Shown here: piece after piece, positions 1 through 23,619 of the stretch | How the letters are laid out: each line of letters begins with the position of its first letter | Numbering within the stretch: the stretch's first letter is position 1 | Assembly: GCA_030581615.1 (NCBI GenBank) | Contig: JAKTTT010000118.1 | Location: 1-23,619 of the forward strand | Length of the DNA stretch: 23,619 nt | Reading direction: 5' to 3' | From: Alloascoidea africana | Lineage: Eukaryota > Ascomycota > Alloascoideomycetes > Alloascoideales > Alloascoideaceae | Made by a program: the position numbers and the translations under genes | Notes under the pieces: generated by a model | What the model saw: only the letters and a program-made list of their open reading frames with translations | What the model was told of the DNA's origin: nothing | Databases searched by the model: none

Positions 1-152
1 ACAGCAAGCGTTACAAGATCGAACAAGACCACGCTACAAAAGCTGATGCAACGTTTTTAGGCATGGCGAATCATCAAGGTAGGAGAACCATTTGAATGAA
101 AAGTGTTTGCTGTGTAAAGAGTAAAGGTTAAAATAAAGTGTAAAGGGTCCTA

Positions 153-312
153 CATCGAACTTCACAGTAGATAATTTACGAGCATGGTTGTGCTCCACGC
201 CCTGGGACAACTAGGGGTCAAATCGACTAATCTCCACAGTGGGTATTTAACCACGCTCATTCTGTCCTTTCTCCTTTCTTTCATCACTTTTGTACATTCC
301 AGATACACACAA
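153..312 (+). promoter_or_regulatory. Promoter block of sHSP-1 (shared with two other sHSP genes)
   Basis: This 160-bp block lies directly upstream of the sHSP-1 start codon. It is repeated without gaps upstream of sHSP-2 (21411-21570, reverse strand) with three base differences by eye, and upstream of sHSP-3. It contains AGGGG at 213-217, which matches the yeast stress response element bound by Msn2/4-type zinc fingers. A TATA-like TATTTAA lies at 244-250, followed by a pyrimidine-rich stretch and ACACACAA just before the ATG. The order STRE, TATA, pyrimidine tract, start is typical of a stress-induced yeast promoter. The regulators are inferred from motifs only. Confidence 0.7.
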
Positions 313-903
313 ATGGATTCTGCGCTTATTGAGACTTTAAACAACCTCAAATCAATATCGGAAACCCAGAATGATGGGTCAAAATCAGGAACAGAAACAG
401 AAGCTCATAACTCTGTTCCTGTAAAAGCCAGGAGCCGGAAAGTCATTAAACTTTTCATACCCAGACCTCCTAAACCGCGTACGCTCGAGTGTTACGTTAA
501 TCCAAAACATTATAGAGGTAAAAGTTATGAACCCATCACAGCCATCTTTTCCTCTCCCAATTCTTATAAGATGCAACTCGCTATTCCAGGAACAGAGAAA
601 GAAAATATTGGCATTTACTATGACGAGTTTGCCCACTATATTGTTGTCATAGGTAGAACTTTTAAAGACCCTTCTTTCCCTCAAACTTCAAAAGAAGAAA
701 CCTTACTGGACTATCGCCAGGAAGATCGTCACTTGCTTCAGAAAAATGGAAAGATTGATTTTGGCAATTTCAAAGTGTATTTAGATTTGGAACCAACGGA
801 TAAGATTGATGAAAAGGAAATCAAGGTTTCATACCATCAAGGGCTTTTGACAATTATCGTGCCAAAGATTGTTCCAAGGAATCCTCAAGAAACTTCAAGC
901 TAA
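313..903 (+). CDS. Small heat-shock protein (Hsp20/alpha-crystallin), copy 1
   Basis: The predicted 196-residue protein is an ATP-independent holdase-type chaperone that should bind unfolding proteins under stress. The alpha-crystallin domain fills roughly residues 80-190: an entry strand with LAIPGTEKENIGIYY, then IVVIGRT, then the closing GLLTIIVPK, the usual G-x-L-T-I-x-V-P-K signature. The first 80 residues are polar and variable with a basic patch near RSRKVIK. The ATG at 313 was chosen because the DNA upstream is a promoter block shared with two paralogues, and in copy 3 that block is out of frame with the protein. An in-frame ATG at 184 would add 43 residues including a hydrophobic stretch, which I consider less likely. 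The gene converges on UBA4. The family is clear; the exact start is fairly sure. Confidence 0.85.
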   Translation: MDSALIETLNNLKSISETQNDGSKSGTETEAHNSVPVKARSRKVIKLFIPRPPKPRTLECYVNPKHYRGKSYEPITAIFSSPNSYKMQLAIPGTEKENIGIYYDEFAHYIVVIGRTFKDPSFPQTSKEETLLDYRQEDRHLLQKNGKIDFGNFKVYLDLEPTDKIDEKEIKVSYHQGLLTIIVPKIVPRNPQETSS

Positions 904-1831: not shown

Positions 1832-3445
1832 TCAGTAGACCGGGAATGATCCGTCAACCTCTTGGGCCCACTGGCTCAAACCTCCTCGAATGTCCCACAC
1901 GTTCTCCAGCCCCAGCCGGCTCTTGAGCAGACGAACCGCTGTCTGGGAGTCGTTCCCGAGCCGGCACACGACGTAAACGGGCCGGGAATCCTTCGACAGC
2001 GGCCCAACCAGTTCGTCCAGCTCTCGTTGATCCTGCGCCCGCGAGAGAGCTTCCAGAGGCACGTTCTTCGCCCCGGCCAGCGAGCATATCTCGAACTGTT
2101 CCACCGGCCGCACATCCAGAAGCAGATGAGGCTCGGTGGCCCTGACCTGGTACTCTTGGACGGACAGACGCTCCTGGAGTCCCAGTGACGTCTTCGTCGA
2201 GGCCGGTCGCCCGCAAAACGCATCATAATCCAGCCTGCCAGACCGCACGTCCTCGATCGTGAGCTTGGCCGTGGGCAGAGAGTCCTCTCCCTTGGCAATA
2301 CACCGTCTGTTGCGACCGCGCATCCTGAACCGCCGCCACGGGCACTGTCCCGGCTCCGAGTACGCAGAGTACACCATCATGAAGGGCTCGAAAGCTTCGC
2401 CGTCCGCGCCGTAGGCACCCGTCAGCACCTTGATCGTCTCAACCGCCATCATCACCCCCATTGCCCCGATCACAGGCCCCATTACGCCGCCGTCCTGGCA
2501 GCTTGTCACGCTGTTGGCCGGCGGTGGCACAGGGAAAAAGCACCGATAGCAAGGGTCCTTACCCTTGGGGCCGTAGTTCAATACCGAGAGCTGGCCCTCC
2601 GTCTTGAGTCCGGACGCAGACACCAGCGGCAGTCCCAGCAGAACCGCCGCGTCCGAGATAAGATATCGTGTTTTGGGCGTATCCGTGCAATCCAGAACAA
2701 GATCGTACTCGGAAAAGATGTCAAACACGTTTGTGGGCGATAGCATCGTGGGATATGTCCTGACCTGGACATTCGGGTTCAGCCTTGTTTTGGGTCGAAC
2801 CGTTAGCCAAAATGCTCAATCATCATGAATAGTGTAATATGCCTTATAACTTACTTTTTGAGAAATTCCGCTGCTGAATTGCACTTGAGCTGACCCACCG
2901 TCTCCGTGGAGTGGATAATCTGTCGATGGAGGTTGGAAACGTCCACGCTATCGTGGTCCACAATACCCAGTGTTCCTAACAATTCCCCATCAAAACAGGT
3001 CAGCTTCTCTTCCTCATCATCGTGTGCTCGGTTTGCCTCGCTTACCTATGCCAGCTCCTCCCAGGTAGGCCAGTGCTGGGCATCCTAGGCCTCCTGCTCC
3101 AACGACCACCACCCGGCTGTTTTTCAGCTTCAGTTGGCCTGCCTTTCGTACCTGAGGAACAATCATCTGCCGTCCATATCGTTTATACTCGTCCAGCGTA
3201 AGGCCTTCAATCTCCACTGTCGGCAGCTCTGTGCTCCTCTCGTTCTCAAGGTCATGGCCAGTAGTCTTCCTCGTCGTCGTCGTCGTGCCTGCTGGCAAAG
3301 CTGCTCCATCATACCCATCCTCGTTCATCCTCAGCCTCAACTGCTCCACCTCCCTACGTAATCTTTCGTTCTCTTTCCGTAACCGGTCCGTCTCCTCCAA
3401 CTGTGACTCATACGCCTTTTGGTAGTCCTCGGGGGTTATCAGCAT
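1832..3445 (-). CDS. UBA4: Uba4/MOCS3: E1-like adenylyltransferase and sulfurtransferase
   Basis: Uba4 adenylates the C-terminus of Urm1 and passes sulfur to it, for thiolation of wobble uridine in tRNA and for urmylation, in the cytosol. There are three exons: 3046-3445, 2855-2975 and 1832-2783. The introns are 2976-3045 (GTAAGC..TAG) and 2784-2854 (GTAAGT..AAG, branch GCTAAC); phases agree and give 490 residues against about 440 in Saccharomyces. An N-terminal coiled coil is followed by [10 protein letters not shown], the nucleotide loop [20 protein letters not shown], the joined [14 protein letters not shown], zinc ligands CYRC and the E1 cysteine in [11 protein letters not shown]. The C-terminal rhodanese domain has LLDVRP and active-site CRLGNDSQ and ends FPVY. 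Oddities: the second zinc pair reads CIAKG where relatives have CxxCG, and the gene is far more GC-rich than its neighbours. It lies 111 bp downstream of ESF1. An in-frame start at 3517 would add 24 residues. Confidence 0.95.
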
Positions 3446-6466: not shown

Positions 6467-7436
6467 TTAAGATCTAAGCACTTGGCTAGACGGATTGTCT
6501 ACATCTTCATCTTCATCTTTATCATCTGATTCATGTTCTGAATTATTGTCAACATCATAGAAGCTGTAGAAACTCCAGTCCCACTCACTTGGCGCGCGAA
6601 TCAGATTCTGACTAGCAAGAATAGAGGTCCATCTCGTCCTGAAAACATCTCCTGGATACGTTGCTCGCCGATATACTGTGAAGGGCTTGGTAAAGGTTGT
6701 TGTAAGACATGGTGGCATCTGGGGCATTTTCAGAATGTTGAACTCTGGGAAACTAAGGTTCCCAAAGTTGTACAAACACAGCTGTAACGTATACCGGCCT
6801 TCTTCCCTCACCCCAAGGTCTTCGATGACAAAAAGAGCGGATTCTGTGCCATCGAGGTCAAACGCCATGTATGCTACTGCTGATAAGGGTCCCAGCAGAT
6901 TTGTCTGCTGTGCACTAATACGTGCAGTTGGTGATTCTGAGGTACCTGGAGAAGCTATACAGGTGACGTTTCGCGACATGTCCTCTGAGTAAAGTGCAAT
7001 GTGAATACAGAAAGAGGATAGTTCCCTATACATGATAAAGTTCAGCATCTATAATCTATAATATTTTGTGTTTTTGAGCGACTCACTCACGTTGAGTACA
7101 GCTGTAGCTCGCGTTTAATGGATGGATGGAACTTCTTTAACCGCACGACGATTGGGGGGTTAATCCTTCGATTGCCCTATATAAATTTGTATACACATGT
7201 ATTTTTGGTTGCTCAGAATTATTACTATTTGTCATGATTGGACACTTGAATTTTGATTTTTCTTTGATATAGAAAAACCTCATCTTGGCATTGGCGCTGA
7301 GCCAAAGTGAGAGAGGTTTTGAATTTAAATTCTTATTTGGGTTTCTTACAAGTCTTTTCCGTCCACAAATTTTTGCCTGGAGAGGTTGTTGAACAACTTC
7401 TAGTTCATATCTGTATTGACTAGCTGACGTTGACAT
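6467..7436 (-). CDS. Velvet-domain transcriptional regulator (VelB/VosA-like)
   Basis: Velvet proteins are fungal DNA-binding regulators of development and secondary metabolism, with a fold related to NF-kappaB, and they act as homo- or heterodimers in the nucleus. Three exons (7350-7436, 7091-7176, 6467-7025) give 243 residues. The introns are 7177-7349 (GTAAGA..TATAG) and 7026-7090 (GTGAGT..TATAG), with phases 0 and 2 agreeing. The domain fills about residues 8-200. It starts YELEVVQQP..AKICG, runs across the first splice junction into RRINPPIVVRL, then SSFCIHIALYSED, NLLGPLSAVAY, FVIEDLGVREEGRYTLQL, and KPFTVYRRATYPGD. These match the velvet order QQP..AR.CG, RRP..PPP..L, LVG.L, F.DLSVR.EG..RL, and PFTVYSAK.FPG. 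The last domain part has diverged and a strongly acidic tail follows (about 215-235). The single-exon reading is implausible because the domain is only complete after splicing. Which velvet subfamily it belongs to is open. Confidence 0.9.
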
Positions 7437-17551: not shown

Positions 17552-20362
17552 ATGGATACACAGGAGGGTTTACCGTTGACGTTAGTAACATCTTCCCATA
17601 CGGTCATTTATTACCCCCCACATGATAGAACAGATCTACCGCGATGCATGATTGTTCCGTCAAACAGTTTAAAGTATGGGGAAATTAGAGAGCTGGAAGT
17701 AAAGGATATGGTCACCACAAGAGCCCTAGAAGATGGTTCCATAGCGTTGACAATTGGCCTTAAACCAGTGGGCATCTTGGAAGAATCAAAAATTCATGAT
17801 TTAGCCATTTTTATCTCGCATTGGCGAACAGGGCTTTCAATTCTGGAAGACGGTTCAGCTGGCAGTTCCAACCGTGGCGAAAATGAAAGCATAAGAACAA
17901 GAAAGGTTTCCGTGTCATCTACACAGCAAGAAGGAGACAAGCATGAGCATCCCCAACTCTCGCATTTGCTTTCTGAGACTAAATCAACATTCAGTGGCAG
18001 CGTCCCAGTTTCTATTCGCGTAAGCACATGGAATGTTGCAGGCTGTTTGCCTCCTCCAGACCTCGATTTAGCAGAGCTACTAGGCCAAGACCCTCAAAGC
18101 AGATATGAACAGAATTCTTTTGATATATATGTATTTGGTTTACAAGAAACAATTCCACTAAACGCCAAAAACTTTTATTCATCACCAGAGCTGATTGATT
18201 CTTGGATATCTCTGATGCTTAATTCCTTGACGGCAAATAAAAGCTCCGAAAAGTATGAGGTTGTTGCCACCAACAGGCTTTTAGGGATTTCTACAATAAT
18301 ACTAGCAAAGGAGTCTATTGCAAAACAAGTATCTAGAATTGAAAAGGACACAGCAGGTACCGGATTGTTTGGCGTATGGGGCAACAAGGGCGCAGTTTCG
18401 ATCCGTTTAACGATAGGAGAAGACAAGCAAGCTCAGTTGGCAGGGACCGAACTGCATTTCCTTAATTTACATCTAGCTGCTGGCGAGAACAATGATGCAA
18501 TGCTTAGAAGAAGGAAAGAATTGTCCTGGATAAAATCAAAAATACAACTACCAATCGGCATCAGCAACGATAGCCTTTTAATAACAGATGATATTCCAGC
18601 AGATATAGGTGTCGTTTTTGATAATGATGCGCTTCTACTACAGAGCCAAGGGAAGGATGCGATCGGAAAAATGGAAAGTTTTGATGAGCAAAGTCTAAAG
18701 GGCGATGACGATGCTATTTCCTTACCCCCTGAAAGAAGATCAAATGAACATAAGCACAGTGACCCAGCTCCAATAAGTCGTGCAGCTACTTTAGTTTCTG
18801 ATTCTGTTTCTATGCATTCCAAGGCATCTGTTACCACTGCTGCCACCACTCCTGTAGAAAACCAGAATGATGGCTTCTTTAAAATATCCGATGAAGAGGA
18901 CGAAGAGTCTGATGAAGAATCAGAAAGCCCCAACGTCCCGCCAGAAAGCTCAGATCCCAATGTAACGAAGGGGCCCTCCCCTGATGGGCCAAAATGTTTA
19001 GTCATCGTGTTTGGGGATTTGAACTATAGAACTATGCTTGGTTCTGCTCTCGCAAGGAGTTTCATTGAGAACGGCGATTACGAGAAGCTTCTGAAACATG
19101 ATCAGTTATCAAACGAGCGAATGGACAACATAATTCTACAGGGGTTCAAGGAGGCACCTGTATCATTCCCACCGAGTTACAAATATGATATCAACACTTC
19201 AAACTACGATACCTCTGAAAAATTTAGAGTGCCCTCATATACAGACCGAATTCTTTACTCTTCAAACTTGACCATAGAGGCCGAAAAGTACGATTCGATT
19301 GATGCCTATTCATTATCAGATCACAAGCCAGTGATTGCTGATCTGAAGTGTTCGTTGGATTTGGTAGATAACAGCAAAAGACAGAAAGTAGTCAAAAATT
19401 TGCTTCGGAAGCTTGATGATCAGGAAAATTCAGCTAGGCCTCAAGTTTCTGTAGCGCCCATTGAGGCAACTTTAGATGGCGCTATTGTGTTGAATAAAAC
19501 CGAAAGCTCTCTTGAAGTTAAAAATGTTGGCAAATCTCCAATATACTGGGAAATTCTGGAAAATGAAAGTAATGGCCCTGAATTCAGTGTTCGACCAACC
19601 TCTGGAATACTTCCCATTGGAGCCAGCCAGTTTGTGCATATTTCATGTACTCCTTCAATTGGTTCCCAAGCACTCTCTTGTCTCTACGTTCTACGGATTA
19701 AAGATTCCCAAGATGTATTTGTGACGCGGACTTTCAATGTTCTGCCCTCATGTTTTGGATGTTCCCTTAGCGAGCTGAGCCTACACCCGCATGGCATTCG
19801 TAATGGACCGGGAAAAGAAGCGACAAATCCACATGGCACAAGCATACCTAAGGAGATTTGGAAATGTGTTGATTATCTTTGGGAACGGCCCACTCCCAGT
19901 TTATTTTCCCGTTCAGCTCCACAATCAGAATCAAGCTGTGCAGATGATTCAGAATTAGAAGCAAAAATCCGGGAATGTCTTGATACTAACCAAGATTTCG
20001 ACCTTGAAGAGCTTAGCCGGGCAAACAAGCTGAACTACCAACGTGGTTCACGCGCTGTGTTGTCAACACTCTTTCTCCTTTTAAAGCACTTAAAAGGTGG
20101 CATAATACCGTCCGAGCATTATGAGGTGGTAATTAGAGGCAGAATTGGCGCGCAACAAATACTGGAGTGCTTGCCAAGCGTCAATGCGAATGTTTTGATA
20201 TACTTGTGCTCTTTTATAAGGCTGGCAATTGAAAATGGTGTTCCTAGTCAGCTAATGTTTGAAATTTTCGAACCGTTACTTATTTCTAGGCCGCCAGGCG
20301 AAAAGGACACCAATGTAAACAAAAAGAAGAGACGAGAGTTTTACAATGAAATTACGATGTAG
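17552..20362 (+). CDS. OCRL-like inositol polyphosphate 5-phosphatase with ASH and RhoGAP-like domains
   Basis: It should remove the 5-phosphate from PI(4,5)P2 and related lipids on trafficking membranes. The 936-residue protein has an N-terminal region (1-100) that may be a PH-like fold, then the catalytic domain (about 150-605) with all family motifs: TWNVAG (159-164), GLQET with the metal-binding Glu (196-200), NKGAVSIR (278-285), NLHLAAG (305-311), FGDLNYR (487-493), VPSYTDRI (560-567) and SDHKPV (589-594). An acidic, serine-rich insert of about 150 residues (335-480) splits the domain. The ASH domain follows at about 630-730, and then a RhoGAP-like domain (about 740-936, PKEIWKCVDYLWERP onward). 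This order is that of OCRL/INPP5B, which Saccharomyces lacks. The region where a GAP arginine finger would sit reads LFSRSAP, so GAP activity is uncertain. There is no intron. Confidence 0.93.
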   Translation: MDTQEGLPLTLVTSSHTVIYYPPHDRTDLPRCMIVPSNSLKYGEIRELEVKDMVTTRALEDGSIALTIGLKPVGILEESKIHDLAIFISHWRTGLSILEDGSAGSSNRGENESIRTRKVSVSSTQQEGDKHEHPQLSHLLSETKSTFSGSVPVSIRVSTWNVAGCLPPPDLDLAELLGQDPQSRYEQNSFDIYVFGLQETIPLNAKNFYSSPELIDSWISLMLNSLTANKSSEKYEVVATNRLLGISTIILAKESIAKQVSRIEKDTAGTGLFGVWGNKGAVSIRLTIGEDKQAQLAGTELHFLNLHLAAGENNDAMLRRRKELSWIKSKIQLPIGISNDSLLITDDIPADIGVVFDNDALLLQSQGKDAIGKMESFDEQSLKGDDDAISLPPERRSNEHKHSDPAPISRAATLVSDSVSMHSKASVTTAATTPVENQNDGFFKISDEEDEESDEESESPNVPPESSDPNVTKGPSPDGPKCLVIVFGDLNYRTMLGSALARSFIENGDYEKLLKHDQLSNERMDNIILQGFKEAPVSFPPSYKYDINTSNYDTSEKFRVPSYTDRILYSSNLTIEAEKYDSIDAYSLSDHKPVIADLKCSLDLVDNSKRQKVVKNLLRKLDDQENSARPQVSVAPIEATLDGAIVLNKTESSLEVKNVGKSPIYWEILENESNGPEFSVRPTSGILPIGASQFVHISCTPSIGSQALSCLYVLRIKDSQDVFVTRTFNVLPSCFGCSLSELSLHPHGIRNGPGKEATNPHGTSIPKEIWKCVDYLWERPTPSLFSRSAPQSESSCADDSELEAKIRECLDTNQDFDLEELSRANKLNYQRGSRAVLSTLFLLLKHLKGGIIPSEHYEVVIRGRIGAQQILECLPSVNANVLIYLCSFIRLAIENGVPSQLMFEIFEPLLISRPPGEKDTNVNKKKRREFYNEITM

Positions 20363-20804: not shown

Positions 20805-21410
20805 TTAACTATCAATTGAGATTGCAATCTTTTTACTAACTTGAGGCTTCTTTGGAACGACAATTATTAAAGCTCCTTCATAATAAATAGCCTTAATTCT
20901 CCTTTCGTCAATCATGTCGTTTGGTTCAAAATATATACGCGCTTCGAACTTGCCAGATAAAATTGGTCCATTGCTGAGCTGATATATGTGACTTGTACCA
21001 CAATCGTAATCGTAATTGTCATCATAATTGTCCCATTCCTTTCCTAATTTTGATTTATTGGAGTAAGTAGGGTCTTGGGAAGTTTTGCCTGTGACAACAA
21101 TACAATGATCAAAATCGTCATAGCGAATATTGATATCCTCTTTCGCTGCTCCTGGAACTGTGACTCTTACCTTATAGTAAGTTCGGTAAGTAGCCTGCTT
21201 GTATGGGGGTTCGAATGGGGCAGAATCATCTGATTCTGACTCTTCATTGGTGCTAAGAGTTTCAATATCTGAGTTGTGATCAGCAGAATCAGAATCATTG
21301 TTAGAATCGACAACTAACTTTCGTTTCCGTTTCTGATCAAACTTGTTTGCATTCTGGGTTTCCAATAGTGTCTGGAGAGAGTTTAAAGTCTCAAGAAGTG
21401 TAGAATCCAT
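20805..21410 (-). CDS. Small heat-shock protein (Hsp20/alpha-crystallin), copy 2
   Basis: This is a 201-residue stress chaperone of the same family as copies 1 and 3. The N-terminus (MDS.LLETLNSL) matches the paralogues. A basic KRKRKL patch near residue 30 resembles a nuclear localisation signal, followed by an acidic Asp/Ser/Glu stretch. The alpha-crystallin domain (about 85-190) has VRVTVPGAAKEDINIRYDDF, IVVTGKT and closing GALIIVVPK. A DNYDDNYDYD insert sits in the middle loop. The tail KKIAISIDS carries an I-x-I-type motif used for oligomer assembly in this family. The start at 21410 is set by the shared promoter block upstream. As in copy 1, an in-frame ATG at 21539 would add 43 residues. 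It is in tandem with copy 3. Confidence 0.85.
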   Translation of the reverse strand: MDSTLLETLNSLQTLLETQNANKFDQKRKRKLVVDSNNDSDSADHNSDIETLSTNEESESDDSAPFEPPYKQATYRTYYKVRVTVPGAAKEDINIRYDDFDHCIVVTGKTSQDPTYSNKSKLGKEWDNYDDNYDYDCGTSHIYQLSNGPILSGKFEARIYFEPNDMIDERRIKAIYYEGALIIVVPKKPQVSKKIAISIDS

Positions 21411-21680
21411 TTGTGTGTATCTGGAATGTACAAAAGTGATGAAAGAAAGGAGAAAGGGCAGAATGAGCGTTGTTAAATACCCACTGTGGAGATTAGTCGA
21501 TTTGACCCCTAGTTGTCCCAGGGCGTGGAGCACAACCATACTCGTAAATTATCTACTGTGAAGTTCGATGCAGGTTGGAAGATTTATAATATCTAAAACA
21601 TACAAGCGATTCTCATGGATTTGTACAACAATCCAAACAATTGAGGAAAAGCGTAGGCGATAAATGTCCAGAGATTCGGG
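21411..21680 (-). promoter_or_regulatory. Promoter block of sHSP-2
   Basis: The inner 160 bp (21411-21570) are the sHSP block, with CCCCT (stress element, reverse) at 21506-21510 and the TATA-like TTAAATA at 21473-21479. A further 110 bp, to about 21680, match only the copy-3 promoter, at roughly nine bases in ten by eye, and are absent upstream of copy 1. Copies 2 and 3 thus share a longer upstream region than either shares with copy 1. Confidence 0.7.
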
Positions 21681-22529
21681 TTAGATCAACGATGATAAAG
21701 TTTTAAACTCGTGGGTAAACTAGGAAATGGAAATGATGGCTTTATTTCGAACAGGCTTTACCTATCAACACTGGCAGAAAACCGATGGTTTCAACTTGGT
21801 GAGCCTCATGGGCTACAGTCACTTGCTGAGCAGAAAAGCAAATGGCTCACACGGACAAGGCCGTTCAGTTTTTGTGAATGTTTAATATTGGGGGCTTCTT
21901 ATGTTTGCAAGTTAAACGACAGCCAGTCATTGAGCAAATACTTTAATGTTTTTGTCATCTCTTCCAACGACTCATAGGTTGAGACCGTTGTATGAGATGA
22001 AGGAAGAAGAACTTGATTTCACACTCGCCCGCTCACACTGGCTGAAACACAGGTTTCAGAAACTAAACGGGCGCCTAATTTGTAAAAAGGCTAGAGGAGA
22101 GTTCAGATCTTAGTTACAATGAACACTCACCACACACACTGTGTATGAATTATTATTTTATTGCATTTAATGGATGAACAATGAAGGAATCTACGTAAAC
22201 CTCTCTTTGTTTTTGCTTGTAGAACTATTAATCGTGAAAGACTTGCTTCTCTTCTCTTCTCTTGTAGTCAGGCTTTACTTTTTCTATAGTATGGGATGTT
22301 TTTCTCATGAAGACCATTTCAAACTAAGAAAAGATCCACATTACATATAAATTTCTAAATGATTTCAATTTGTGAAAAAAGAAGTTGGGAATGTAAATTT
22401 AGTATTCATGTTATGTAAAAAGTTGATGTGTAACTGAAGAAAATGCAGTTTAGTGGTTCAAAAGTTTAACATAGACTTTTCCAAAGAAAATGCCAATTGG
22501 AAATCATCAATTTTCTTTGTTTTTTTTCT
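21681..22529. other. Intergenic region between sHSP-2 and sHSP-3
   Basis: It should contain distal promoter sequence of sHSP-2 and the terminator of sHSP-3. An 88-codon plus-strand frame (21711-21977) shows no family signature. A small perfect hairpin (CTGAAAC, ACAG, GTTTCAG) lies at 22042-22059, and a TTCTC-type microsatellite at about 22247-22263. Confidence 0.5.
22247..22263. repeat. Short TTCTC microsatellite
   Basis: About three and a half copies of TTCTC lie in intergenic DNA. No function is suggested. Confidence 0.6.
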
Positions 22530-23198: not shown

Positions 23199-23480
23199 TT
23201 GTGTGTGTATCTGGTTGTGTGAGATTTAGCGTGTACAAAAGTGATGAAAGAAAAGAGAAAGGACAGAATGAGCGTGGTTAAATACCCACTGTGGAGATTA
23301 GTCGATTTGACCCCTAGTTGTCCCAGGGCGTGGAGCACAACCATGCTCGTAAATTATCTACAGTGAAGTTTGATGCAGGTTGGAAGATTTATAATATATA
23401 AAACATACAAGCGATTCTCATGGACTTGTGCAACAATCCGAGCAATTGAGGGAAAGCGTAGGCGATAAATGGCCAGAGAT
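23199..23480 (-). promoter_or_regulatory. Promoter block of sHSP-3
   Basis: It carries the same block as copies 1 and 2, with CCCCT at 23311-23315 and TTAAATA at 23278-23284. A net 17 extra bases sit between the block and the ATG. The outer part, to about 23480, is shared only with copy 2. Confidence 0.7.
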
Positions 23481-23619
23481 ACAGGTTATGACTAACCTTT
23501 GAAACATTATACACTAAAGAGTACCAACCAATGAAATTTACACCTCCATAGGACAAGAAGGAAGAGAGTAGACACAACAACATCATACTGTTTGAGTTGA
23601 AAAGTTGGAATAAGGGTTA

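Follow-up and report, generated by a model that had tools for sequence, protein, structure and literature searches.

Does the gene at positions 6467 to 7436 of this contig encode a genuine velvet regulator, and, if so, how did a budding yeast come to carry it? Velvet regulators are fungal relatives of the NF-kappaB transcription factors. Their velvet domain has an NF-kappaB-like beta-sandwich fold, through which the proteins pair and bind DNA. These regulators are best studied in filamentous fungi, and the host yeast offers a view outside them. The window, meaning the whole stretch of DNA that was analyzed (23,619 nucleotides), is the entire contig C118. The assembly to which it belongs comprises 138 contigs and totals 23,180,953 bases. 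A first-pass annotation had proposed a VelB-type gene with two introns and, supposing a budding-yeast host, had read it as a relict or transferred copy in a group generally described as having lost its velvet genes. With a probability of about 75%, we instead regard it as an active, divergent VelB-clade velvet regulator, a paralogue of the VelB-like gene at C14:338696 in a Saccharomycotina species that would have kept and partly duplicated its velvet set.

The splice model was examined first. The gene lies on the minus strand, and its three exons (Table 1) join into an open coding sequence of 732 bases, encoding 243 residues and a stop codon. GT-AG models with one or two introns were enumerated, and the 95 open models were ranked by bits against a profile. 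This profile combined the six other velvet paralogues of this genome with three velvet fragments of solved structure and left out the window protein. The two-intron model of the first-pass annotation ranked first at 85.3 bits, while the runner-up reached 81.2 bits with a weaker donor. Reading through intron 2 from exon 2 led to an immediate stop. Reading through from exon 1 stayed open for some distance, but out of frame with exon 2, before it too met a stop. When the bases of the coding sequence were shuffled 20,000 times, no copy stayed open. Additionally, an intron lies at almost the same position as intron 1 in the modelled VeA-like gene on C61. From the sequence, both introns are predicted to be spliced as modelled, and the locus appears to be a genuine velvet-type regulator gene.

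Table 1. Coordinates of the exons and introns of the window gene and of the velvet loci in the assembly
Feature	Position	Strand	Description
Exon 1	7350..7436	(-)	Alignment to VelB starts at VelB residue 59
Intron 1	7177..7349	(-)	173 nt, GTAAGA...ATATAG; top of 95 splice models
Exon 2	7091..7176	(-)	GNRRINPPIVVRLKK...; DNA-binding region, second half
Intron 2	7026..7090	(-)	65 nt, GTGAGT...GTATAG
Exon 3	6467..7025	(-)	Velvet dimerization region, Asp/Glu-rich tail, stop codon; 64.7 bits alone
VelB-like locus	C14:338696		Single open frame, intronless
VeA-like locus	C61:46855		92/91 with VeA
Window gene	C118		VelB-clade paralogue
VosA/VelC-like locus	C41:137815		Several intron choices fit equally well
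VosA/VelC-like locus	C41:176212
VosA/VelC-like locus	C12:256717
VosA/VelC-like locus	C14:196127

The spliced 243-residue product matched the Pfam Velvet family (PF11754) at 115.1 bits (E 6.7e-33, cut-off 25), the sole Pfam family matched at E 0.001. The match fell into two stretches, the better of which covers profile positions 128-228 of 237. In a scan of the unspliced genome, exon 3 was found by itself, and exon 1 scored 14.4 bits, under the cut-off. The profile match bears out the velvet motif order that had been described as complete. That word was slightly generous, because the match ends at 228 of 237 and the protein lacks the basic stretch with which the domain normally closes. Folded alone from its single sequence, the exon 3 frame gave a beta-rich model of low confidence (pLDDT 44.7), and none of the 492 PDB matches to this one-exon fold reached E 0.001 or less.

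Comparison with solved structures placed the window protein closest to VelB (4n6r, 6.6e-20), followed by VeA (1.2e-4) and VosA (1.3e-4). Apart from these three, the matches listed up to E 1 included just Clp1 (0.43). We take chain B of 4n6r to be VelB of A. nidulans. In a tree of ten rows with three reference proteins (VelB, VeA and VosA; VelC was not sampled), the window protein grouped with VelB and the genome's own VelB-like gene at a support of 97/96, and at 96/95 without the VeA-like row. In modest two-tree tests that forced it to join VeA, VosA or the group of four paralogues described below, the AU p values were 0.018, 0.023 and 0.026, respectively. Forcing it together with the C14 gene gave 0.264. 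VelB and the C14 gene paired at a support of only 53/37, so the order within the VelB group is uncertain. The exact position of the window protein is unsure because its branch is very long, at 3.87 changes per column, and the tree program warned of long branches meeting. Both comparisons agree with the VelB-type assignment made earlier. As judged from sequence against three reference proteins, the window protein is a divergent, long-branched VelB-clade paralogue.

The window gene is not the VelB orthologue; the intronless gene on C14 is. VelB is described as having a long disordered insert within its velvet domain (PMC12614781). In the alignment to the window protein, the insert position corresponds to the gap between VelB 145 and 236. 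At this place a long insert of low complexity is present in the C14 gene, whereas the window protein has just a short variable stretch. The C14 gene and not the window gene was therefore filed as VelB. The window protein is 30% identical to the product of this gene.

A velvet profile search of the assembly gave 14 matches, which we grouped by position into seven loci (Table 1). All seven modelled domains exceeded the Pfam cut-off, with 94.2 to 250.7 bits. The six other gene models were built from hand-chosen anchors; they span the domain but in some cases not the full gene, and they are not as secure as that of the window gene. The four VosA/VelC-like loci formed one group (100/99), with modelled introns at similar places and a common CKVT...DK...DRR motif. 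Forcing this group together with VosA gave p 0.176, and it may represent either VosA or VelC. The window gene had been supposed to be a lone relict or transferred copy, and a genome that also holds VelB-like, VeA-like and four VosA/VelC-like loci speaks against this. The domain of phytochrome, a known light partner of the velvet pathway, was not found in the genome at E 0.001 (PF00360).

The host was placed by score rankings, not by a species tree. Among the best 60 of 91 matches to RPL3, the chains 7pzy (725.9 bits; presumably Candida albicans), 6uz7 (717.3) and 5it7 (713.1; both presumably Kluyveromyces lactis) were listed with Saccharomyces cerevisiae chains at about 700-705 bits. Also among the matches listed were 9spj at 699.9, 4v7h at 656.9 over 350 aligned residues, 7olc at 651.1 and 8oo0 at 650.0 (both presumably Chaetomium), 8esq at 645.9 (presumably fission yeast), 7r81 at 641.0 (presumably Neurospora) and vertebrates at about 570. 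For the complex I 49 kDa subunit (54 matches), 6gcs, which we take to be Yarrowia, scored 821.4 over 413 residues, 9iho scored 806.5, and 7zm7, which we take to be Chaetomium, scored 768.9 over 393. A Yarrowia chain over just 383 residues still reached 795.6, and animals reached 675 or less. The share of CTG codons on leucine columns was 9 of 10 for RPL3_C24, 10 of 13 for NUCM_C34 and 2 of 4 for NUCM_C18, while CTG does not occur in RPL3_C31. Both RPL3 and complex I score higher with budding-yeast chains than with those of Pezizomycotina, RPL3 also higher than with fission yeast, and most CTG codons lie on leucine columns. The host therefore very probably belongs to Saccharomycotina, carries complex I in its nuclear genome and reads CUG as leucine, in keeping with the budding-yeast host first suspected. 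Saccharomycopsis is a CUG-serine yeast. A CUG-reassigned, Saccharomycopsis-like host was not supported, as the CTG codons lie mostly on leucine columns.

The two markers suggested earlier for species placement did not serve. ESF1 had no match to solved structures at 0.001. UBA4 had 10 matches and was useless for placement, because its only fungal ones, the uba4 chains of 6yub, 6yuc and 6z6s, are presumably all from Chaetomium. The window is unlikely to be a contaminant contig, because the one ESF1 match reported in the assembly sits on it; in addition, the genes at its ends have HSP20-like relatives elsewhere in the assembly that are up to 49% identical. GC content per one-kilobase bin of the window was 35-48% in 22 of 23 bins and 57% in one.

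Several genes in the assembly occur in duplicate. RPL3 was found twice (C31:50336 and C24:234505), with near-identical mature proteins and 1103 of 1278 aligned DNA columns identical. The complex I 49 kDa gene was also found twice (C18:89091 and C34:228183); its mature proteins are again near-identical, and the DNA agrees at 1046 of 1267 aligned columns. Both alignments stop near the gene ends. The leucine codons of the two RPL3 copies include 9 TTG and 0 CTG on C31, versus 10 CTG and 3 TTG on C24. Cys_Met_Meta_PP gave two pairs of similar score, C56/C9 and C49/C20. These duplicates could come from an old genome duplication, a hybrid origin or single duplications.

Budding yeasts have been described as lacking velvet proteins (PMC5309816, 2017; PMC13006574, 2026 review), and the first-pass annotation followed this view. 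Two genome surveys disagree. Velvet genes of the VeA, VelB, VelC and VosA clades were found in part of Saccharomycotina, with none in most genomes (PMC10845976, 2024), and Saccharomycopsis fibuligera was reported to have 12 (PMC5106798, 2016). Velvet loss from Saccharomycotina is thus a generalisation, and since such genes were already reported in 2016 and surveyed in 2024, the surprise is mostly removed. The window gene adds to a known, often overlooked pattern of velvet genes in some budding yeasts. It resembles the Sac-Tap-VelB clade of Saccharomycotina and Taphrinomycotina (PMC10845976) in coming from the same subphylum and in being VelB-type by our small tree. S. fibuligera is alike in having several velvet genes within one budding-yeast genome; it differs in having 12 genes (PMC5106798), whereas the window's host has seven loci and reads CTG mostly as leucine. 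Among the listed titles and abstract openings for Lipomyces, Geotrichum, Saccharomycopsis, Dipodascus, Yarrowia and Saccharomycotina, no further yeast velvet report appeared. A Candida orthopsilosis paper was set aside, as its "velvet" refers to the assembler. Single yeasts such as Geotrichum candidum, with a published GC of 48%, have retained ancestral genes (PMC4479816). By analogy, such retention is a likely route for the window gene; velvet is not named in the sections covered of that paper.

To compare functional positions, VelB residue numbers were read off the alignment of the structure sequence with the window protein. The two proteins share their domain order. Within the DNA-binding region they have in common L.VVQQP..A..CG and, allowing for a shift of one residue, RR..(.)PP; the dimerization region contributes the motifs NL.G.LSA.AY and PF.V......PG. 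Unlike VelB (4n6r), the window protein has neither the long insert nor the C-terminal IRK motif. The arginine cluster R71/R80/R81 is reported in the N-terminal DNA-binding region of VelB (PMC13389560). R71 corresponds to Lys22, and R80/R81 correspond in the ungapped alignment to Asn31/Arg32, with an RR pair (R32 R33) one residue further on. The dimer residue G240, 98% conserved (PMC12077163), is kept as Gly103 and is invariant across the alignment of all seven paralogues. L331, a dimer residue that is 95% conserved among velvet proteins (PMC12077163) and so common without being obligatory, is changed to Trp190. The basic C-terminal motif, present in some form in the other six paralogues, is absent from the window protein, which has an Asp/Glu-rich tail in its place. 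With R71, L331 and the RR register altered, and with neither the C-terminal motif nor the VelB insert present, function may have changed.

These changes invite the reading that the modified paralogue can still dimerize, whereas its DNA binding is poor, so that it would compete with or inhibit the other velvet proteins as their partner. The kept G240 fits this idea, as do the lysine, the tryptophan, the lost basic C-terminal motif and the acidic tail, and alanine at R71 or L331 is reported to impair VelB in A. nidulans (PMC13389560, PMC12077163). However, arginine to lysine preserves the charge, further basic residues remain beside the RR pair (GRKRLGNRR), and L331 is itself a dimer residue, so pairing may be altered too. 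We consider an inhibitory role unlikely, if worth keeping in view. A related proposal, that the duplicated VelB is now a dedicated modulator within the seven-member velvet network, its dimer glycine kept and L331, R71 and the C-terminus changed, is equally tentative. If true, it would re-wire which velvet pairs form or which DNA gets read.

The very long branch and changed conserved positions would also suit a decaying copy, a recent pseudogene. This is improbable: all 243 codons are open, both introns have sound sites, and no shuffled copy stayed open. At 30% identity to its paralogue, a frame unconstrained for so long would be expected to hit stops. Horizontal transfer of the window copy from a filamentous fungus is the least credible account. 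VelB-like genes are typical of such fungi and the host group is often called velvet-free (PMC13006574, PMC5309816), but the GC3 of the velvet gene, 0.418, lies within the range of 0.34-0.74 measured for eight further genes of the window, so the compositional sign of a transferred copy is absent. The six additional velvet loci argue the same way, as does the published occurrence of such genes in some Saccharomycotina (PMC10845976).

The window gene is thus most likely an ancestrally retained, duplicated regulator of putative function. Its Saccharomycotina host would have kept the velvet genes of the ascomycete ancestor, some of which were then duplicated. The velvet domain of the window protein, presumably a beta-sandwich, would pair with another velvet protein, and its N-terminal basic region would contact promoter DNA. 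Together, pairing and promoter contact may tune development, such as filamentation and spore formation. Its expression, dimerization, DNA binding and controlled process are proposed here by analogy. A single yeast in which a divergent VelB paralogue accompanies genes of the VelB-like, VeA-like and VosA/VelC-like kinds would provide a natural test of velvet roles outside the filamentous fungi.

Other features of the window and genome were also observed. GC3 was 0.74 in UBA4 (window 1832-2746) and 0.87 in the C14:338696 VelB-like gene, with the other 12 coding sequences measured at 0.34-0.52, so GC differs strongly from gene to gene. No tRNA genes were found in the window, and a search of it against Rfam gave no matches at gathering scores. 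Three HSP20-like genes (window 149-373, 21350-21574 with 21427-21683, and 23232-23488) have a common block of 93-97% DNA identity at or before the long ORF starts, and the protein stretches beyond it are just about 42-43% identical. This leader may be a copied or converted 5' UTR or promoter, in which case a later Met (MDS...) would be the likelier HSP20-like start. Window 17552-20362 encodes an inositol-polyphosphate-phosphatase-like protein with an Ig-like domain barely over the cut-off, a layout we take to be OCRL-like. The genome search found partial relatives of this protein on C93 and C43.
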